From IMG/VR virus record IMGVR_UViG_3300032020_000027, positions 1 through 39,277 of that record: a stretch of DNA of 39,277 nt. The stretch is one strand, 5' to 3'. The notes under the pieces were generated by a model that did no database searches, had not been told where the DNA came from, and saw nothing but the letters and a program-made list of their open reading frames with translations. The position numbers and the translations under genes are program-made. Within the stretch, counting starts at the first letter, position 1; each line of letters starts with the position of its first letter. The stretch is from a virus. Positions 5,477 to 37,593 of the stretch are shown in pieces.

Positions 5477-5492
5477 TAAACTAATGAAAACT

Positions 5493-5597
5493 ATGCCAAA
5501 GACAAAACGAAAAGACCGAACAAGACAAGCCCCAAATCCTCCTAAAGATGCGGAAGCGAAAGTTAATTTTGAAAGATGTAATAAAAAGAAAAAATAA
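5493..5597 (+). CDS. Basic microprotein, paralogue 2 (other copy at 3969)
   Basis: The product has 34 residues (MPKTKRKDRTRQ, then PNPPKDAEAKVNFERCNKKKK). The start is set by analogy with the copy at 3969; an in-frame ATG nine bases upstream would add three residues. Substitutions are mostly conservative at protein level (K/R, N/D, Y/C), suggesting coding constraint. It lies upstream of an HNH gene. Confidence 0.6.
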   Translation: MPKTKRKDRTRQAPNPPKDAEAKVNFERCNKKKK

Positions 5598-5612: not shown

Positions 5613-5969
5613 ATGAAAAGTAAAAAATCCAAACTTCAAAGCGAGGCTGATAGACTATGGTTTATCGTTCTATTTGCCCCTATATGCGAAGTTTGCAGCG
5701 GAAAAGCAACACAAGTACACCATTTCTTCCCAAAAGGCAATTATGGACACTTAAGATATAACTTAAAAAATGGAATTCCTATATGTAAGTTGTGTCATTT
5801 CAAACATCACACGAAGTTTAGTCCAGAAATACATCAAGCAATTATTAAGAAACGTGGCCAGGATTGGTACGACGATTTAGAGGCAGAAGCAAGAAAAAGA
5901 TTATCAAGTTTCAAGACAATAGGATATTATGAAGATATTATTAGTAAATTAAAAGAATTAGAGCCTTGA
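5613..5969 (+). CDS. HNH/NinG-like nuclease
   Basis: The 118 residues contain CEVCSGKATQVHHFFPKGNY (about 27-46), YNLKNGIPICKLCHFKHH (about 52-69) and a helical end. The two CxxC pairs hold the fold. HH in VHHFF supplies the general base, and CHFKHH is the metal-binding end. This layout is common in phage HNH proteins near recombination genes and overlaps with the NinG type. It may process recombination intermediates or act as a homing nuclease. The start at 5613 follows gggagattaaaag, one of the few Shine-Dalgarno-like leaders here. Confidence 0.8.
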   Translation: MKSKKSKLQSEADRLWFIVLFAPICEVCSGKATQVHHFFPKGNYGHLRYNLKNGIPICKLCHFKHHTKFSPEIHQAIIKKRGQDWYDDLEAEARKRLSSFKTIGYYEDIISKLKELEP

Positions 5970-6073: not shown

Positions 6074-6484
6074 ATGAAAAAAATAACTTTCAAAGAACTT
6101 CAAGAAATAGATTCATTAGTCGCCAATTTATACACAAAAGATAAAACTTTACAAAACTCTAAAATGGGGTATGCATATAAAAGATTTTCAGAGAAGTTTT
6201 ACTTTCCAGTAGTTAAAGAACTCCAACAAAAAACACAAGATATTAGAGTTGATAACGCAATGGAAGATAAAAATACCAAAGAGATTTTGGCAGATGGGAA
6301 TAATGTTAGGGGATATAAATATACAAAGGAAGGACTGAAAAACTGCATGAAACAAGAAAGAGAATTAGTTGAAGAATATGATAAAAGGGAAATTGAGATA
6401 GAACCTTTTATTTCATCATTCAAGCCAGAAAATTTAACAGATGAAGAAAAAGAATTATTAAAGGGTATAATCTTTGCCGAGTAG
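6074..6484 (+). CDS. Hypothetical helical protein
   Basis: The protein has 136 residues, is charged, and has no Cys or membrane segment. Parts such as LQEIDSLVANLYTKDKTLQN and NLTDEEKELLKGIIF suggest a compact helical fold. The region around KEILADGNNVRGYKYTKEG looks like a beta hairpin. Its stop codon lies inside the loop of a terminator (6476-6495), so it is the last gene of its transcription unit. The family is not recognised. Confidence 0.6.
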   Translation: MKKITFKELQEIDSLVANLYTKDKTLQNSKMGYAYKRFSEKFYFPVVKELQQKTQDIRVDNAMEDKNTKEILADGNNVRGYKYTKEGLKNCMKQERELVEEYDKREIEIEPFISSFKPENLTDEEKELLKGIIFAE

Positions 6485-6495
6485 TCGGCTTTTTG
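6476..6495 (+). terminator. Rho-independent terminator
   Basis: GCCGA (6476-6480), loop GTAG and TCGGC (6485-6489) are followed by TTTTTT-like sequence (6490-6494). The loop contains the TAG of the preceding gene. It separates the early accessory block from the unit starting at the promoter at 6509. Confidence 0.85.
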
Positions 6496-6508
6496 TTATG
6501 GAAAGGAG

Positions 6509-6537
6509 TTGACGACAGGTTTCGTGGGGTGTATAAT
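6509..6537 (+). promoter_or_regulatory. Sigma-70-type promoter
   Basis: TTGACG (6509-6514), a 17-base spacer and TATAAT (6532-6537) are close to the bacterial consensus. The ATG of the HNH gene is at 6544, seven bases after the -10, so the transcript would start on or beside the start codon. This is the strongest promoter match in the window and probably also drives the sugar cassette. Confidence 0.85.
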
Positions 6538-6543
6538 TGAGGT

Positions 6544-7083
6544 ATGATTATACAAAGAAAATGTGTTTGCGGGAAAACTTTTAAAACTCACGATTATCTT
6601 GTTAAAAAAGGAAAGGGGATATTTTGTTGCAAAAGATGTTATTATGACCACGCCCATAGACCAAGTGGATTAAAATATATTTTACATAAAGTTAATCCAA
6701 CAAGTTTCAAGAAAGGACAAAAACCGTGGAATACTGGTTTGGCAGGCAAAGGAATTTGTAAGGCAAATTATAAATGTATTAAAAAGGGGGAACATAGGGG
6801 ATTAAAAACAGAATTTAAAGTAGGAAATGAGTCGTGGAATACCGATAAAAAAATATGGACTGGTAGTAGAAGTGAATATACAAAATTACATAGGTGGGTT
6901 AGGAAACAAAAGGGAAAACCATTAAAATGTGCGAAATGTGGTTCAACAAAAAGAATGGTATGGGCTAATAAAAGTCAAAAATATAAAAAAGAAATAGATG
7001 ATTGGATAGAACTTTGTAAGGGTTGCCATACTAAATATGATTTTAATTTTATAAAAGAAAATTTATGCAAACAAAAAAAATAA
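6544..7083 (+). CDS. HNH homing-type endonuclease with apparently leaderless start
   Basis: The 179 residues begin with a zinc ribbon (CVCGKTF ... FCCKRCYYDHA). A repeat typical of phage homing nucleases follows (NPTSFKKGQKPWNTGL and, later, KTEFKVGNESWNTD). The C-terminal HNH-like domain is CAKCGSTKRMVWANKSQKY, then DDWIELCKGCHTKYD. The FKxGxxxWNT repeats recall NUMOD-type DNA-contact modules. The gene lies between a terminator and the sugar cassette and carries its own promoter. Confidence 0.82.
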   Translation: MIIQRKCVCGKTFKTHDYLVKKGKGIFCCKRCYYDHAHRPSGLKYILHKVNPTSFKKGQKPWNTGLAGKGICKANYKCIKKGEHRGLKTEFKVGNESWNTDKKIWTGSRSEYTKLHRWVRKQKGKPLKCAKCGSTKRMVWANKSQKYKKEIDDWIELCKGCHTKYDFNFIKENLCKQKK

Positions 7084-8087: not shown

Positions 8088-9052
8088 AAAAAGTTTGTTT
8101 AGTATCAGCCGTTCATAAGCAACCAACCAATAAATGGATTAAATCATTGCCAGATATTCCAGTTTTTATTGTTGATGATTCGGATGGACAGATAAATTTT
8201 ACCAGAGATAATATAGAAGTATTTGATTATAAAAGACAAAAAAAGGAACTGGGTAAAAACTATGATTATTTTGCAAAGACATTTCATAAATCGCCTGCCT
8301 GCAAAAATTTTGGACTATGGTATGCTTATAAGCAGAAGTTTGATTTTGTGATTGTTATTGATTCAGATTGTATAATTGAAGATAAAGCATTCGTAAATAA
8401 ACATTTATTAAATATACAAGAATTAAAAGGTTGGCGTTGGGAAAATCCATTGGTAGGTACAGGATATTTTTCAAGAGGATTTCCTTATGAAGAAAGAAAT
8501 ACAAGAGTTGTCCTAAATCTCGGTTTATGGAATGGATTATGGGATATAAATGGGAAAGATAGAGATGAAAAAAACTCAGCAAGAAATTATCCGGCACAGA
8601 TAGGTTGGTTTCCGCAAACTATGGTTGCGTTGGGAATAATCCCATTATCAGGAATGAATTTTATTATAAGACGAGATGCGATACCGGCATTATTATTCTT
8701 GCCTAACTTCGGAGAATTCAAAAGACACGATGACATAATGGGTGGATATATTTTTCAAAGGATAATGCAAAAAGCGGGAGAATGTTTAACTTACGGGCAA
8801 CCCCTTGTTTATCACAATTCTGATGTTGATGCTAAAAAAGATGAAGAAGAGGAAAAGGCAATGAATACATCAGGAATGTATTTTTATAGATTAGTAGATA
8901 AGGCAATACAAGAAATAATGCCTTGCGATAATTATGCGAGCATGTTTAGACAATTTGAAAGTTCAATACACGATAGTTTAATTGGGACAATGTTTGAAAG
9001 TTTAATTTTAACTTTTAAGTGGTGGTCTGATTTATTTCAAAAAAATGTATAA
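8084..9052 (+). CDS. GT75/RGP-like glycosyltransferase or sugar mutase
   Basis: With the ATG at 8084 (ATGA overlap with the upstream stop; 8075 is also possible) the protein has 322 residues. FIVDDSDG, then KNFGLWYAYKQKFDFVIVID and SDC give a DxD-type site. The later SGMNFIIRRDAIPALLF, RHDDIMGGYIFQRIM and GQPLVYHNS match the pattern of reversibly glycosylated polypeptides (GMN-x-AFDR, RYDDMW-x-GW, G-P-x-x-x-H). Plant members interconvert UDP-arabinose ring forms or self-glycosylate. The phage role is inferred to be sugar supply or transfer with the dehydratase upstream. Confidence 0.6.
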   Translation: MKKVCLVSAVHKQPTNKWIKSLPDIPVFIVDDSDGQINFTRDNIEVFDYKRQKKELGKNYDYFAKTFHKSPACKNFGLWYAYKQKFDFVIVIDSDCIIEDKAFVNKHLLNIQELKGWRWENPLVGTGYFSRGFPYEERNTRVVLNLGLWNGLWDINGKDRDEKNSARNYPAQIGWFPQTMVALGIIPLSGMNFIIRRDAIPALLFLPNFGEFKRHDDIMGGYIFQRIMQKAGECLTYGQPLVYHNSDVDAKKDEEEEKAMNTSGMYFYRLVDKAIQEIMPCDNYASMFRQFESSIHDSLIGTMFESLILTFKWWSDLFQKNV

Positions 9053-13281: not shown

Positions 13282-13349
13282 ACAATATAAAATAGTTTTC
13301 AATCTCTAACCAAAACAAACGGGGGAGGTGCCAAAAGCACCTCTTTTTT
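13282..13349 (+). ncRNA. Predicted short transcript between promoter and terminator
   Basis: From the expected start near 13282 to the T-run at 13349 the RNA would be about 68 bases. It has an unpaired A-rich 5' half (ttcaatctctaaccaaaac) and a terminator hairpin at the 3' end. It could be a small RNA or an attenuated leader for portal and head genes. A similar arrangement is at 34250-34394, and both have an accaaaa(a)caaa run before the hairpin. Confidence 0.45.
13325..13349 (+). terminator. Rho-independent terminator before portal genes
   Basis: GAGGTGC (13325-13331), loop CAAAA and GCACCTC (13337-13343) form a perfect seven-pair stem followed by TTTTTT (13344-13349). A GTG-started frame running through it is not credible, so the next gene begins at the ATG at 13352, three bases after the T-run. 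Confidence 0.9.
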
Positions 13350-13351
13350 AT

Positions 13352-13510
13352 ATGGAAAATACAAAACGAAAACTTACTGACCCTGAAGAATTTGCGATAA
13401 TCAGGGACATCTATTTTGAAAAAGATTACAAAGACGATGACATAGACCAGCAGGAAAGATGGGATAGGTTAGAAAGCAGAATTAAAAATAATAATAAATC
13501 ATCACGATGA
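13352..13510 (+). CDS. Small acidic protein upstream of the portal
   Basis: The ATG at 13352 gives 52 residues (MENTKRKLTDPEEFAIIRDI, then YFEKDYKDDDIDQQERWDRL), charged and helical. The longer GTG frame from 13328 would translate the terminator stem and is rejected. Its TGA overlaps the portal ATG by four bases. The start is only two bases after the terminator T-run, so it depends on readthrough or an unseen promoter. Confidence 0.5.
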   Translation: MENTKRKLTDPEEFAIIRDIYFEKDYKDDDIDQQERWDRLESRIKNNNKSSR

Positions 13511-15333
13511 GTTTACTTATTCAAACAGCATTGCAAAATATAAAATCGCACTACGATGGAACTATTGATTTAGTTGACGGCTTACCATTTAGCCAAAAGA
13601 AACAAATAAAGACAATAGAGTTTTATAATAACTCAAAATATCTCAACGGCCAGAAAGACGAGTTAGGCAGGGATAAACCATTTTTTCAGATATTAAATGC
13701 TATATGCGATGTGGAAAATTCCGCAAAGGATTTAGATACCAAAGATATAAACATAACAAGCGATGACGGCAATCATTATTTAGAAAGTTGGCTTTTGTCA
13801 AAAGATATTCAGGTTTGGATGAAAGATACCAACTTCGCAAAAACTCTTAATGATATGCGGGATATGCACACTCGCTATGGTTCTTTATTAGTCAAGAAAA
13901 TAGAAAAGAAAGACGAGAAAGGAAAAAAGCAGTTATATTTGGAATTGCCAGAGTGGAAGAATACGATTACAGACCAAGTAAGTATAATTGACGGGGCGAT
14001 AGTTGAGATACATTGGCTCACGCCAGTTCAGTTATCTAAAATGACCGAATGGGAAAACATAGACAAGATATTAGAAAAAGTAAAAAACACCACAAAGAGA
14101 ATACCTGTTTATGAGATACGGGGCGAGTTCAGTAAAGCGGCTTACAAAAATTGTGAAGGACAAAAATATACTGAAAAAGATAAAAAAACATTCTCTTATC
14201 AACTTTATTACATAGCGGGAAATCCGACAGACAAAACAACAACAGATATTGATGCATTTGTTCCTCTTTACTGGGAAGACGACACAGAGAGAGTTTATAA
14301 ATATTTAGCAAGAAAACCCAAAGCAGGCAGAGCGTTTGGCGTGGGAGTTATGGAAGAGGGCGAGGAAGCCCAAGTATGGACGAATGACGCAGTATTAAAA
14401 CAGCACAGAGCAATGGAATATACTACAAAAGTTGTGGGACAATCTGCTTCTAAAAAGTTGAAAGGCAGAAATCTATTGAATGAAGTTGATGATGGAACTA
14501 TTTTAGAGCACGAGGACGGAAAGCCGATTACTGCTATCAATTTACTGCCGGCAGGCGGATTACAGCAATACAATAATTTAATCGTTCAGTGGTATGACCA
14601 GTTAGAAAAAACTACGAGTGCTTATTCAGCCCAAAGGGGTGAAACTCCTCCATTCGGGACTCCTTTTAGATTACAAGCAACAGTATTACAGCAATCTTCA
14701 AGCGTGTTCAAAACGCTTCAACAAGAATTAGGCATATTTATCACAGAGATATTTGAGGACTGGATTATGCCTTATTTAGCAGGAAAACTAAACCAAGAGC
14801 ATATTTTAGCTTATGAGTTTTCGCCAGAGGAATTAAAAGAAATTGATAATAAGTTTTCAGCAAAACAGGCAAATCAAAGAGCAATACAAATGATATTAGG
14901 CAAAAAGGACTTTACCCAAGAAGATTATGACGAATGGATAAGTGTGGCAGACGAGTTTATTAAAAAAACCAAAGGACAGAGATTTATTGAAATACCAAAG
15001 GGATTCTACAAGAATTTAAAAGCCAAAATAACGGTTAATATCACAGGAGAACAGAGAAACAAGGCGGCAACTCTTGAAAGTTTGAGTAATATCTTGACGG
15101 TTTATGCTGGTAATCCGGCGTTGTCGCAAGACCCGGTGGCTTCTCAGTTATTGGCAAGAATTATAGAGTTATCAGGAGCGGGGATTAGCCCCGTGCAGAT
15201 TACTGCGGCAATGAACCAAAAAGCCAAGCAAGACGCTGAAATGCAACAACAGAATATGATGATGCAGCAGCAAAGACAGAAAGTTCCGCAAAAACCAAAA
15301 CAAGACAAATTATTAGCAATGTCAAATGTATGA
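13507..15333 (+). CDS. Portal protein
   Basis: The protein has 608 residues and sits two genes after the terminase. The N-terminal region includes FYNNSKYLNGQKDELGRDKP, consistent with phage portals. The centre has LPEWKNTITDQVSIIDGAI and a long helical stem region, and the Gln/Met-rich tail EMQQQNMMMQQQRQ is a common barrel or crown feature. Portals form the dodecameric channel at one capsid vertex that receives the terminase. Identification rests on position, size and helix layout rather than one diagnostic motif. Confidence 0.8.
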   Translation: MSLLIQTALQNIKSHYDGTIDLVDGLPFSQKKQIKTIEFYNNSKYLNGQKDELGRDKPFFQILNAICDVENSAKDLDTKDINITSDDGNHYLESWLLSKDIQVWMKDTNFAKTLNDMRDMHTRYGSLLVKKIEKKDEKGKKQLYLELPEWKNTITDQVSIIDGAIVEIHWLTPVQLSKMTEWENIDKILEKVKNTTKRIPVYEIRGEFSKAAYKNCEGQKYTEKDKKTFSYQLYYIAGNPTDKTTTDIDAFVPLYWEDDTERVYKYLARKPKAGRAFGVGVMEEGEEAQVWTNDAVLKQHRAMEYTTKVVGQSASKKLKGRNLLNEVDDGTILEHEDGKPITAINLLPAGGLQQYNNLIVQWYDQLEKTTSAYSAQRGETPPFGTPFRLQATVLQQSSSVFKTLQQELGIFITEIFEDWIMPYLAGKLNQEHILAYEFSPEELKEIDNKFSAKQANQRAIQMILGKKDFTQEDYDEWISVADEFIKKTKGQRFIEIPKGFYKNLKAKITVNITGEQRNKAATLESLSNILTVYAGNPALSQDPVASQLLARIIELSGAGISPVQITAAMNQKAKQDAEMQQQNMMMQQQRQKVPQKPKQDKLLAMSNV

Positions 15334-15554
15334 AATCAATTCAACAATTTTACAGAGATGTAGAAACCAGAGATAATGTTAAAAATTATCTTATAGAGTA
15401 TTTGAAAGAAGAAGCGGTTAAAAAAGTATTCGCCAAAGAAGATGTAAGTGCGGTGGCGGAAGCAAAAGAAATGATAGAGAAAGCATTTGAAAATATGAGT
15501 TTGTTATTTGATAAAAAGGTTGAGAAAAAAGAAATTATAAATCAAGCCCGTTGA
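15330..15554 (+). CDS. Small helical head-region protein
   Basis: The 74 residues are nearly all helical and charged (VKNYLIEYLKEEAVKKVF, AEAKEMIEKAFENMSLLF). It overlaps the portal by ATGA at 15330-15333. Small helical proteins here may be head-completion or assembly factors. No family is recognised. Confidence 0.55.
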   Translation: MKSIQQFYRDVETRDNVKNYLIEYLKEEAVKKVFAKEDVSAVAEAKEMIEKAFENMSLLFDKKVEKKEIINQAR

Positions 15555-23782: not shown

Positions 23783-25135
23783 ATGGCAAAAACATTAGAT
23801 ACAGGACAAATAGAAATAGAAAAAGGTGATACTCTTTATGATATTTATGGCGCAGATTGGAAAACAAAATCTGACTATACTGGCGACCCTACAAAACTTC
23901 AAATAGGGACTATCTTGCCCGGACTACAATCATCAACAATTCCAACTGATACACTATCAGGTTCATCAAGTTTAGTTAAATTAGGAGAACCAGAAATAGC
24001 CAAACCGCCTTTGATAGTAAATGACACTCAATTCTCGCCAGTGGAAGACCCGATGAAATGGGCGAAGGATTATATGGGAACTCTAAAAGAAACATATCCA
24101 GTTCCTCCGAGTGGAGCAGAGGCATATACTAAGGCCTATGGGCCGACAGATACTCCAGAACAGATAGCGCAAAAAGAACAGGCAGTAAAAGCAAGCACAG
24201 ATAAAATAAATGCTTTAAACGCCCAGATACAAGGGATAATGAATACCGCAACGCAAGCCCAATTAACATTGGAAAGTCAAGCGGCTGGAAAGGATATTAC
24301 TTCCACCTTTTTAGGCAGGCAACAACAAGAAATAAGCCGACAATCTGCCATACAAGTCCTTCCTCTTCAAACGCAAGTTCTGACAGAGCAAGCGACTCTT
24401 ACAGGAAACACCGCTTTGTTAGAACAGGCACAGGGCAAAATTGATACTTATTTCAAATACCAACAGCAAAACGCAGAGAATCAGTATGACTATCAACAAA
24501 AGATAATAGATAAGTTTTTTGACTTTGCCACAGAACAGGAAAAAACTAAATTGGCGAACTTGAAAGATGAGAGAAATAAAGAGTTTCAATTAGCTAGTGC
24601 CAACAGATCTGACCAAAATACTTGGGCTATAAGTGCCACAGAAAACGGACAAGGAGTTTTAGCAGGTCAGATAATGGCGTTGGATGCGACCAGTGATACT
24701 TTTCAACAAGATTTGGCGAGGTTGGCAGAACAAATTAAGGAGAAGGCGAAGGCGGCAAGTATTCCGACTATTAAAAGTGGTGGACTTGTTATTGCAGAAA
24801 GCAATGTCGCTACAGCTCAACAACAATTAGACACAAGTAGAGGACAATCTTATCAAAATGAAAAAGGTGAAACAATTACACCAACAGGAGTTGATGCTCA
24901 ATATGTCAATTCTGCTTTATATCTTCAAATGTTAGACGCTTGGAAAAAAGACGGAGGATTAGAGCAGGATTTCTTTACTCAGTTTCCTCCAAAGAATTAT
25001 CTGAACCCGAATGATGCAAGTGTGCCGACATACATAAGGGAAAAATTATCTAAACCAACAGAAGAGGAAACAGATACAGAAGCATTAACTAAAGCAATAA
25101 AAGAACTAAATAAGCCGTGGTGGCAATTTTGGTAA
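23783..25135 (+). CDS. Virion protein with N-terminal LysM-like motif
   Basis: The 450 residues begin with IEIEKGDTLYDIYGADWKTK and, after a short loop, LQIGTILPGL, which fits one LysM repeat (GDTLxxI ... GTxLxxP) that binds peptidoglycan sugars. The rest is Gln/Ala-rich and helical, with long coiled coils (QQQNAENQYDYQQKIIDKFF) and a C-terminal PWWQFW. It is likely an internal or tail-tip protein that meets the cell wall during DNA entry. The combination is inferred. Confidence 0.6.
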   Translation: MAKTLDTGQIEIEKGDTLYDIYGADWKTKSDYTGDPTKLQIGTILPGLQSSTIPTDTLSGSSSLVKLGEPEIAKPPLIVNDTQFSPVEDPMKWAKDYMGTLKETYPVPPSGAEAYTKAYGPTDTPEQIAQKEQAVKASTDKINALNAQIQGIMNTATQAQLTLESQAAGKDITSTFLGRQQQEISRQSAIQVLPLQTQVLTEQATLTGNTALLEQAQGKIDTYFKYQQQNAENQYDYQQKIIDKFFDFATEQEKTKLANLKDERNKEFQLASANRSDQNTWAISATENGQGVLAGQIMALDATSDTFQQDLARLAEQIKEKAKAASIPTIKSGGLVIAESNVATAQQQLDTSRGQSYQNEKGETITPTGVDAQYVNSALYLQMLDAWKKDGGLEQDFFTQFPPKNYLNPNDASVPTYIREKLSKPTEEETDTEALTKAIKELNKPWWQFW

Positions 25136-31586: not shown

Positions 31587-31826
31587 ATGGAAAAAGAAGT
31601 ATACGAACTTATTTTAACGGGGGGAGCAGTAGGGGTCTTATATGTGATTTATCTCATTATAAAAGTTATGTTTGGAAAAAAGAACGGACAAACAATTGCC
31701 CTCAATAAAATATCCAATAATGACCTAAATCACATTTATAGTGAAATGCTTCATCAAACCGAACAGCATAACGAACAAATAAAGTTATTAACTAAAATAG
31801 CGACGATTTTAGAAGAAAGAAAATAA
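31587..31826 (+). CDS. Membrane protein, holin-like candidate
   Basis: The 79 residues contain one membrane helix (LILTGGAVGVLYVIYLIIKV, about residues 8-27), then a basic GKKNG turn and a charged helical tail ending LEERK. The N-in/C-out hairpin size fits small holins or XhlA-like accessory proteins, and it lies at the start of the lysis side. A second candidate holin lies at 33373, so one may be an antiholin or a virion membrane protein. Confidence 0.45.
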   Translation: MEKEVYELILTGGAVGVLYVIYLIIKVMFGKKNGQTIALNKISNNDLNHIYSEMLHQTEQHNEQIKLLTKIATILEERK

Positions 31827-31849
31827 TTAAAGTAAAGTTCTTTTATAAA

Positions 31850-31989
31850 GATAATCGGCAGAGCAGTGGAGGTACTCCATTCCTGCTCGTGGATACGAGT
31901 TAGTTAATTGTGCAGGAAGGTATGATGATGGCACGAAAGTGCGGGCCGCAAACCCTATCGTCTAACCCTTCACTGCCTTGCCGATTATC
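31850..31989 (+). ncRNA. Large branched structured RNA F
   Basis: A 19-position closing helix pairs 31850-31868 with 31971-31989 (GATAATCGGCA with TGCCGATTATC and GCAGTG with CACTGC, one G-U and one A-C between). Inside are GGAG/CTCC (31868-31878), TTCCTGC (31880-31886) with GCAGGAA (31912-31918) capped by CTCGT/ACGAG, and GATGAT (31924-31929) with ATCGTC (31957-31962). The last holds GCAC-GAAA-GTGC with a GNRA-type loop and GGG/CCC. The design is too regular for chance. G+C is higher than in neighbouring genes. I do not know the family. Confidence 0.75.
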
Positions 31990-31991
31990 AG

Positions 31992-32008
31992 TTCTCTTTT
32001 AAGGAGAA
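31992..32008 (+). promoter_or_regulatory. Hairpin hiding a Shine-Dalgarno site
   Basis: TTCTCTT (31992-31998) pairs with AGGAGAA (32002-32008), so the AAGGAG motif (32001-32006) five bases or so before the ATG at 32013 is buried. Opening this hairpin would expose a strong ribosome site. It directly follows RNA F by two bases, so refolding of F could control it. Confidence 0.5.
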
Positions 32009-32012
32009 ACCA

Positions 32013-32273
32013 ATGTTGCGGGGAGTTTGTCGCAAGACCAACCTTATTGTGGCAGACAGGAAGGTTGCACTTCACTGCATTTCCAATCACTGCAAGTGGC
32101 TGGAAATCATTGTGGACGCAGGAAAGGAGGGAAAGAATGGCAACAGCAGTTGCGGAGAAGGAAAAGATACATTCCACCGAGTTGAAAGATTTAGACGCTC
32201 TGAAGGAACTTTGCCTCCTCCTTATCCAGTGGGGAAGGCAAGCCGAAGAAGAGCATCATTGCCTCGTAGTTGA
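32013..32273 (+). CDS. Uncertain ORF in the RNA-rich module
   Basis: The frame gives 86 residues and has a good Shine-Dalgarno site (AAGGAG), rare in this window. The first 37 residues (MLRGVCRKTNLIVADRKVAL, then HCISNHCKWLEIIVDAGKEG) look protein-like, with Cys and His. After 32137 it overlaps another frame that looks better. The end (PPPYPVGKASRRRASLPRS) is low-complexity and may not be real. Either two genes overlap by 137 bases, or the first is short or frameshifted into the second. Confidence 0.35.
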   Translation: MLRGVCRKTNLIVADRKVALHCISNHCKWLEIIVDAGKEGKNGNSSCGEGKDTFHRVERFRRSEGTLPPPYPVGKASRRRASLPRS

Positions 32274-32295
32274 GGTCTTCGTGAAAAAGGACTAA
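32137..32295 (+). CDS. Small acidic protein with a strong ribosome site
   Basis: The product has 52 residues (MATAVAEKEKIHSTELKDLD, ALKELCLLLIQWGRQAEEEH), ending VVEVFVKKD. It is probably two helices and a strand. AAAGGAGG lies seven bases before the ATG, the best Shine-Dalgarno match in the window. Codons are much richer in G+C than in neighbours (ctg, ctc, gcc). No family is recognised. It sits between RNAs F and G. Confidence 0.5.
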   Translation: MATAVAEKEKIHSTELKDLDALKELCLLLIQWGRQAEEEHHCLVVEVFVKKD

Positions 32296-32301
32296 TCAAA
32301 A

Positions 32302-32376
32302 AGGGGCGGAATGCCAAAGTGGAAAATCCACAAATCTCGGAATAGAGATTAAAGTGGTTATTCCGCCCCTCATTTT
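32302..32376 (+). ncRNA. Three-way-junction RNA G, terminator-like
   Basis: AGGGGCGGAAT (32302-32312) pairs perfectly with ATTCCGCCCCT (32360-32370). Inside are GTGGA-aaa-TCCAC (32319-32331) and AATCTC-ggaata-GAGATT (32333-32350), with CCA/TGG joining at the base. A TTTTT run (32373-32377) follows. It may terminate the module with an unusually branched terminator or be the stable 3' end of a separate RNA. Confidence 0.7.
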
Positions 32377-32385
32377 TATAATTTT

Positions 32386-32792: not shown

Positions 32793-33376
32793 AAATTTAT
32801 AGGGCAATTTCAACAAATTTGCTCCGACAAGGTTTCGGATTAGAAAATACGGCTCCCGCAATGCTCCCATTGTATCAATCTTTGGGCTTGCGGGGGCATT
32901 GACTTGACGGCTGGGATTGGCAAGTTATGTGCAAAAATAATTTAATCCAATTAGGAGGTCAATGCGAGAATATCTATTGCGATATTTCCAATGGGGCAAA
33001 AATAACTTATATCCAAAAAGATATTAAACATGGTTTTGGAATTATTGCTGTTGACGAAGAAGGAGAAAAACATTTATGGTGGCATTTTGACAACATAAAT
33101 CCTGATTTATCAGTAGGGGATAAAATTGAAAGCGGTGATTTATTGGGTGTTGCAGGCAATACAGGATATTCTACAGGCGCTCATTTGCATAGAGGATATT
33201 ACAGATGGAATGAAGACCCAAATAATGGGTATGAAGGTGCTACAAATCCAGAACCTTATTTCACAAATATCTTTGTTCTTGATTATATTGACACTTTGAA
33301 AAAACAATTAACAATTTTCCAGAGATTGGTCGTTCTCTGGCAAAAAATTAAAAACTTAATAAACTTAATAAAATGA
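32786..33376 (+). pseudogene. M23 peptidase endolysin interrupted by in-frame TGA
   Basis: A single frame from the ATG at 32786 to TGA at 33374 would encode a LytM/M23 zinc endopeptidase. The 5' part (RQGFGLENTAPAMLPLYQSL, then GLRGH) is the normal run-up to the HxGxD zinc motif. The codon after that His is TGA (32900-32902), then L, then DGWDW. Removing six bases restores HDGWD. The 3' part has HLWWHFDNI, GDLLGVAGNTGYSTGAHLHR with the late HLH ligands. M23 enzymes cut peptidoglycan cross-bridges. A product restarted at ATG 32927 would lack two zinc ligands. This is a mutation, a recoding site, or an assembly error. Confidence 0.75.
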
Positions 33377-34146: not shown

Positions 34147-34249
34147 AAACATTCGTGTTTTACGAAGAATCGCTGGTTAGGGATAACGACGATTTTTCGT
34201 TTAACGACCTGTGAATAACTAAGGATTTTGTAAGGGGAAACTGGAGGAC

Positions 34250-34277
34250 TTGACTGGGTTTTCAGTTGTGATAAAAT
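34250..34277 (+). promoter_or_regulatory. Sigma-70-type promoter
   Basis: TTGACT (34250-34255), 16 bases and TAAAAT (34272-34277) form a good promoter in the 140-base gap after the acidic gene. AGGAGA just downstream could serve as a Shine-Dalgarno site for the ATG at 34286. The transcript is stopped by a terminator at 34371-34394. Confidence 0.7.
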
Positions 34278-34285
34278 AGGAGAAT

Positions 34286-34402
34286 ATGGAGACTAAATCA
34301 AAACAATTAAATCAACAAAAGGAATTATGCGTTATGATTCTTTCTGTTGGTTTAGTCACCAAAAACAAAGACCACTTCGCAAGAGGTGGTTTTTGCGTAT
34401 AA
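34286..34402 (+). CDS. Possible 38-residue leader peptide overlapping a terminator
   Basis: The frame reads METKSKQLNQQKELCVMILS, then VGLVTKNKDHFARGGFCV. It has a Shine-Dalgarno-like AGGAGA and an ATG eight bases past the -10. Its last codons run through the terminator stem, as in attenuator leaders. It may instead be a chance frame in a small RNA of about 110 bases. Confidence 0.35.
   Translation: METKSKQLNQQKELCVMILSVGLVTKNKDHFARGGFCV
34371..34394 (+). terminator. Rho-independent terminator
   Basis: ACCACTT (34371-34377) pairs with AGGTGGT (34384-34390), with one G-T pair, followed by TTTT (34391-34394). It ends the short unit from the promoter at 34250. Readthrough would enter structured RNA H. 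Confidence 0.8.
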
Positions 34403-34417
34403 AAAACAAAAAAAGCT

Positions 34418-36822: not shown

Positions 36823-37593
36823 ATGAACTCTAAAACAAAAAAGTTTGAATTTAATAAAGAAAAGCACGAATATCTTTTAGACGGACAAAGAATGACTGGA
36901 TGCACGACTATACTTGGCGTTCTTGCTAAACCTGCTCTTATCCCTTGGGCGGCACGAATGGCAACAGATTATATCAGAAATAATGCTCCAAAAGAATCAC
37001 TATCAATGCCAGATGGAGAGAAACTAGAAGAGTATAATTACATTGTTAGTGAAGAACTTTTAGAAGAAGCCTGCAAAGCCCATACTAAAAGAAAAGAAAA
37101 AGCAGGTGACTATGGGACTAAAACTCACGAGATTATAGCAGAGATTATAGCAGATGTTATAGAGAACTCGGAAGGATTTATTAGAAGTGGCAGGAACTCT
37201 AATAAGTCGGTAGATAACTTTATTCAGTGGGCTATAAACAACAAGGTTAAATTTCTTGAAACTGAAAAGATAATTTATTCAGAGGAGTTGTTTATTGCGG
37301 GAACGGTTGACTTTGTTTGTGAGATAGACGGGCAAATATGGGTTGGAGACATAAAAACCTCTGGTAGTGGGATTTATTCTGAACACTTTTTTCAATGTGC
37401 TGGCTATAATATAATGTTAGAAGATATGGGTTTATATCCAAACATTACCGGCGACTTAATCCTTAACCTAAAAGAAAATGGCGAGATGTTGGAGAAGCGG
37501 TCAATCTCCAATGAAGCCAACCGAAAAATCTTTACTAATTGCGTGGAGATTTATAGGCAACAAGAATTATTAAATAAAGCAACAATAAAATGA
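36823..37593 (+). CDS. RecB-like PD-(D/E)XK nuclease
   Basis: The 256 residues contain YGTKTHEIIAEII (the early His/Glu motif), AGTVDFVCEIDGQIWVGDIK, then TSG, giving the D...D-x-K catalytic core, and HFFQCAGYNIM, the usual RecB/Cas4-type end with Gln and Tyr. There are no Cys clusters for an iron-sulphur centre. These enzymes are exonucleases in phage recombination or replication. It overlaps an SSB-like gene, so a role in DNA end processing is likely. Confidence 0.85.
   Translation: MNSKTKKFEFNKEKHEYLLDGQRMTGCTTILGVLAKPALIPWAARMATDYIRNNAPKESLSMPDGEKLEEYNYIVSEELLEEACKAHTKRKEKAGDYGTKTHEIIAEIIADVIENSEGFIRSGRNSNKSVDNFIQWAINNKVKFLETEKIIYSEELFIAGTVDFVCEIDGQIWVGDIKTSGSGIYSEHFFQCAGYNIMLEDMGLYPNITGDLILNLKENGEMLEKRSISNEANRKIFTNCVEIYRQQELLNKATIK

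Follow-up and report, generated by a model that had tools for sequence, protein, structure and literature searches.

The phage contig IMGVR_UViG_3300032020_000027, analysed over its full length of 39,277 nt (hereafter the window), carries a 520-nt unit in which two strongly folded RNAs enclose two small reading frames, in the order RNA F, ORF1, ORF2, RNA G. The unit is located between the gene of a 79-amino-acid membrane/coiled-coil protein and the genes leading to an M23 endopeptidase (Table 1). It combines two extreme folds, a peak in G+C content, strong Shine-Dalgarno (SD) sites and a coding signal in ORF2, and the same design is found in the same slot of the distantly related phage L064. 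We give about even chances to the explanation that the phage acquired the unit horizontally as a small accessory cassette of moron-like kind, with F as leader or insulator, the ORF2 protein as product and G as terminator, in a slot that is used recurrently in this group of double-stranded DNA phages.

Table 1. Features of the unit and its neighbours in the window, and of the corresponding locus in L064
Genome	Feature	Position	Strand	Remarks
Window	Upstream neighbour: 79-aa membrane/coiled-coil protein	31587..31826	+	holin- or spanin-like position
Window	RNA F	31850..31989	+	22-pair closing helix and two inner arms
Window	Leader hairpin with first SD site AAGGAG (32001-32006)	31992..32008	+	-5.8 kcal/mol, z +0.59
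Window	ORF1, 86 codons	32013..32273	+	likely genuine over some 41 initial codons only (32013-32135)
Window	ORF2 SD site AAAGGAGG	32123..32130	+	-12.1 kcal/mol, strongest of 63 genes
Window	ORF2, 52 aa	32137..32295	+	soluble by inspection; likely product of the cassette
Window	RNA G	32302..32370	+	long outer stem around two hairpins
Window	Downstream neighbour: M23-type endopeptidase (lysis)	32927..33376	+	PF01551, E 2.8e-8
L064	Membrane/coiled-coil gene, 136 aa	ends 6113		directly 5' of cassette
L064	Long-stem RNA F'	~6113-6202		z -6.53
L064	Small leader hairpin	5' of ATG at 6229
L064	69-aa ORF	start 6229		coding-like pattern, p 0.0012; SD-like pairing -7.9
L064	Second strong hairpin	6502-6566		z -3.94

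Folds, base composition and reading frames of the unit

The two branched RNAs, which a first-pass annotation had picked out from the sequence alone as strong, are indeed among the strongest structures of the window. F folds with a minimum free energy of -62.1 kcal/mol, where its shuffled versions average -37.2 (z -7.07), and G (folded as 32300-32375) with -36.4 kcal/mol, where they average -15.6 (z -7.50); none of 200 shuffles did as well in either case. In a GC-corrected scan of both strands of the whole window, F was the top 140-nt window and G the top 80-nt window, while with windows of 100 nt G kept its top position, together with a further RNA at 34301. The closing arms of F are 23 nt long and 87% complementary (inverted repeat I1), and its arm 2 is a compact three-way element made up of a 7-bp GAUGAUG/UAUCGUC, a 4-bp GCAC-GAAA-GUGC and a 3-bp GGG-CCGCAAA-CCC stem. 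The outer arm of G spans 11 nt and is perfect, flanked by an A tract on its 5' side and by CATTTTTAT on its 3' side; with its GC-rich stem and a U tract about 3 nt beyond, G can be read as an intrinsic terminator, one whose branched loop falls outside the simple terminator definition.

The region at 34301 merits a remark of its own. A likely phage small RNA occupies 34240-34405, with a long stem (GGAGACTAAATC...GGTTTAGTCACC), a terminator-like hairpin and a promoter-like TTGACT-16-TAAAAT that has TG before its -10 element (at 34250); its conserved counterpart in L063 (6612-6784) is about 73% identical and differs from it in the stems.

The unit also stands out in base composition, as the first-pass annotation had noted from its G+C-rich appearance. 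With 46.7% G+C, where the mean is 34.9% (sd 3.9), 31845-32377 forms the peak of the contig, whose richest 533-nt window begins at 31837; a profile along the sequence steps at about 31845 and 32377. A second, smaller composition peak nearby, at 32793-32926, is a G+C-rich intergenic stretch with hairpins just 5' of the M23 gene.

Between F and G, one frame is open over 101 codons and another over 93, a pair of lengths that occurred together in none of 1000 shuffles. The strongest coding evidence concerns ORF2, in which G+C falls on codon positions 1, 2 and 3 in 33, 13 and 29 of 53 codons (periodicity p 0.0004, coding-like), and which we take as a real gene. For ORF1 the periodicity before the overlap with ORF2 is p 0.08 and the pattern within the overlap is rich at position 2; since the remainder runs across ORF2 in another frame and shows a noncoding G+C pattern, ORF1 is probably real only over some 41 codons. 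Of the "one or two" small ORFs proposed at first, one is thus coding-like and the other plausible over its first part. It is possible that ORF1 encodes a short upstream peptide and that its frame stays open further by chance or by selection on the overlapping frame. AlphaFold models, too uncertain for fold searches, give ORF2 one helix (residues 19-36, pLDDT 70) and leave ORF1 mostly undefined (pLDDT 50, residues 35-68 below 50). A slippery heptamer, GGGAAAG (32129-32135), lies after the ORF2 SD site in phase with ORF1, but a -1 shift there misses the ORF2 frame and adds only about 16 residues, so it is probably incidental.

Among 63 genes of the window, for which the median SD pairing is 0.0 kcal/mol, ORF2 pairs most strongly (-12.1), and ORF1 (AAGGAG) ranks joint second at -8.2 kcal/mol. 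The earlier statement that strong SD sites occur only here nevertheless went a little too far: the gene at 5613 reaches -8.2 as well. The first site does sit in a hairpin just 3' of F, as had been described, but this hairpin is weak (Table 1) and has a competitor: in the fold of the full module, 31990-32006 pairs with 32277-32293, closing the middle on itself, and the SD site is paired near 32277-32282. Such pairing could, in the predicted fold, hold ORF1 closed until the RNA is opened; as the middle region folded alone reaches only z -1.65, we do not build on this idea. Stretches complementary to the ORF2 SD region occur within F (31875-31886) and within ORF2 itself (32213-32225), and in a single sequence these may serve as leads only.

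Searches for relatives of the unit returned little. Against Rfam there was no match at the gathering threshold and none credible at E values up to 10, GOLLD and ROOL included, and Pfam, NCBIfam, PHROGs, PADLOC and the PDB gave no credible match. No RNA-binding family was recognised in ORF1 or ORF2. Homologues of ORF2 were absent from IMG/VR, from 84,980 species genomes and from phage and plasmid records, those of ORF1 from phage records; module DNA gave only chance matches, or none, in phages and plasmids, the exact stem pattern of F had no match in IMG/VR, and no donor was found. A covariance check on F and G, proposed at the outset, failed because no homologues were available: across the window and 45 records of related phages, single-sequence models recovered nothing but F and G themselves, and since such models reach near relatives only, distant homologues of F and G may exist. 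No promoter-like site was seen for the cassette, and none resembling a sigma-70 site 5' of F, although that consensus may not be the host's.

A cassette of like design at the corresponding place in a related phage

L064 came to light through a structure scan that flagged its two RNAs; the other marks were checked afterwards, so that the find is not the outcome of a search-and-count of the whole design. L064 and the window phage share 50.5% identity in TerL and 57% in the protein encoded at 36823-37593. The L064 slot matches that of the window, after a membrane/coiled-coil gene and before lysis genes, with membrane, peptidase-like and SLT-like lysis genes lying 3' of the cassette (6110-6570). 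In this slot L064 has a long-stem RNA, a small leader hairpin, a 69-aa ORF with a coding-like pattern and a second strong hairpin (Table 1). The SD-like pairing of the ORF contrasts with values of -2.4 or weaker for the neighbouring genes, and the richest 460-nt G+C window of the 20-kb locus starts exactly at 6110 (52.6% versus 37.1%). The two phages thus share design and slot.

The two cassettes may also be related by descent, a possibility that was examined at the level of sequence. The DNA alignment between the two modules scores above 100 of 100 shuffles, but among 2336 G+C-matched segments of other phages 14 reach that score (p ~0.006), so that the alignment signal is weak. The alignment of F with F' lies at the border of significance, with 7 to 14 of 300 shuffles scoring as high; we count the two RNAs as not detectably homologous, and the cassette proteins of the two phages do not align. 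PHROG 24994 was considered as a family common to both cassettes and rejected, as it matches the L064 ORF only, and weakly.

The sample behind these comparisons was gathered with several queries. A TerL search yielded 33 IMG/VR contigs, mostly fragments without this region; the protein at 36823-37593 (nuclease-like by inspection, with no family match) brought in L063-L128 and a tail-fibre motif L132-L143, and the endopeptidase and a 450-aa protein (23783-25135), used as search anchors, recovered no relatives. Of about eight lysis cassettes inspected, two contain the unit, as would fit an accessory insertion, and these two are the known instances of the design. L065 has just one strong hairpin in the slot (5480-5565, z -6.1), at the start of the lysis cassette, and no ORF; in L069, L132, L134, L135 and L137 there is no strong structure between the membrane/coiled-coil genes and the lysis enzymes.

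Other strong structures were met in the same sample. Those in L060, L058, L062, L056 and L074 were read and found to be of a different design. On the minus strand of L070, an end-paired two-hairpin RNA (2713-2812) lies directly 5' of an 82-aa ORF, a layout like that of F but dissimilar in sequence and not assigned to the lysis slot. L065 has a very strong hairpin (8250-8345, z -6.5) 3' of its SLT-like gene, and L056 carries, on the minus strand at 2041-2300, a tandem array of a 9- to 10-nt unit (TAGGAGCGC / TTGGAGCGC) that is G+C-rich and extremely structured within an otherwise AT-rich phage region.

A proposed accessory cassette and its rivals

The initial suggestion of an imported, self-contained RNA-plus-peptide unit finds support in the peak of G+C, in the use of SD sites, in the coding signal of ORF2 and in the same-slot cassette of L064; both the import and the transcription as a unit of its own are inferred. 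The slot would lie between the last structural or holin-like gene and the lysis enzymes. RNA F would act as a structured 5' leader or insulator that marks the 5' end of the cassette mRNA and, being very stable, end-paired and branched, might block decay or run-in from the upstream operon. ORF2, with the strongest SD site of the genome, would give the main product, ORF1 would be a short coupled upstream peptide or leader ORF, and G would end the transcript. These roles of F and G, like any benefit to the phage, are our suggestion, and nothing observed favours F as a leader over F as a free RNA. The contig being an IMG/VR-type virus record, there is a small chance of a local assembly error; the parallel in L064 counts against this.

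A free-standing, trans-acting phage RNA is the least improbable of the alternatives, unlikely as we consider it: F (F' in L064) would form a ribonucleoprotein with the small protein, as part of an RNA-protein accessory system. The compact, end-paired and branched shape of F, its GAAA tetraloop and its tRNA-like arm 2 are more elaborate than a leader or terminator needs, and the pairing of an RNA with a small ORF recurs in L064. Moreover, in the related phage L069 the gene for Ro60 adjoins an array of RNAs that are paired at their ends and resemble Y RNAs, which means that RNA-protein cassettes occur in this phage group. The window, however, has no Ro60 gene, F has no Rfam match and no detectable homology to F', and neither ORF belongs to a recognised RNA-binding family.

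Somewhat less probable still is an ordinary intergenic layout, in which F and G serve as terminators or as hairpins for RNase processing and neither ORF is real. Strong intergenic hairpins are common in these phages (the slot hairpin of L065, L140 and the window at 34301 are examples), and a U-rich stretch follows F after two bases. Yet no U tract stands immediately at the stem, which makes F a poorer terminator, and the SD strengths, the periodicity of ORF2, the two long open frames and a G+C peak that takes in the ORFs as well as the RNAs all argue against this layout. Going beyond the accessory cassette itself, the head of the lysis genes might be a dedicated slot for exchangeable RNA-protein cassettes, each with an end-paired RNA, a small protein and a structured terminator, built from unrelated sequences to one design; we regard this generalisation as a long shot.

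We hold it to be very improbable that 31850-32370 is one large ornate noncoding RNA with accidental ORFs. The full module folds with z -6.37 and closes its middle through the long-range pairing described above, but the middle by itself is not strongly folded, the coding signals and SD sites count against it, and neither GOLLD, ROOL nor any other Rfam family matches. An equally improbable reading, a decayed or minimal MITE-like mobile element that ends in inverted repeats and is flanked by an 8-bp target duplication, draws on the presence of TTTTATAA just outside both module ends and on a 20-nt terminal inverted repeat (31843-31862/32362-32381, 75% complementary), but about 8% of random pairs of AT-rich flanks share a match of 8 bp, the border repeat is not significant, no second copy was found in the contig or among related phages, and the L064 borders, by reading, lack such a duplication.

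If the accessory cassette is a real transcription unit, the slot offers a positional handle on those accessory proteins and structured RNAs of uncultured phages that sequence similarity misses. Exchangeable phage cassettes would then be recognisable by their design (a G+C peak, SD sites and two extreme RNA folds) and not by homology.

Comparison with known systems

Like the Y RNAs of Ro60 systems (YrlA-type), F is an end-paired, long-stem, branched RNA with a partly tRNA-like interior. We reject this reading for the module because the window has no TROVE/Ro gene (PF05731); F also has no Rfam match. In L069 (IMGVR_UViG_3300049046_000043, 13333-15529), a Ro60/TROVE gene (14027-15529, PF05731, E 1.4e-21) is directly preceded by about four long-stem RNAs (13333-13450, 13502-13632, 13632-13765 and ~13910-13985). 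Together with Ro60, the array, which has no Rfam match, has the appearance of a Ro/Y-RNA system of the phage in which there are several Y RNAs; two of its RNAs share GAGGTTGTAAYG, a stretch that is absent from F.

With the ornate GOLLD and ROOL RNAs the module shares the presence of large structured RNA in phage genomes, but it has no Rfam match and its structure is concentrated in two short RNAs that flank coding sequence. Type I and type III toxin-antitoxin systems likewise place a small ORF near a structured RNA. ORF2, unlike a type I toxin, is charged, with a single predicted helix of 18 residues and, by inspection, no membrane-spanning stretch; of the marks of type III systems, the module has neither a repeat array nor a match to ToxN-like or other protein families. 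The function that the first-pass annotation had in mind, a regulatory RNA with a toxin-like, anti-defence or satellite role, has no support: there is neither a credible family match nor an integration or replication gene within the module.

The closest likeness is to phage morons, horizontally acquired and independently transcribed accessory genes of phages (PMC6469090). Common to both are the place between late modules, the deviating G+C content (here the contig maximum), translation signals of their own, a terminator-like end and absence from most relatives, the slots of six relatives being without the unit and none of the 45 related records holding a homologue of F or G. The module differs from morons in being flanked by two exceptionally stable branched RNAs, the 5' one far larger than a leader needs, and in having a product of no known family and no recognised promoter. 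For F, G, ORF1 and ORF2 no family, fold or homologue was found; what is new is that L064 carries a cassette built in the same way at the same place.
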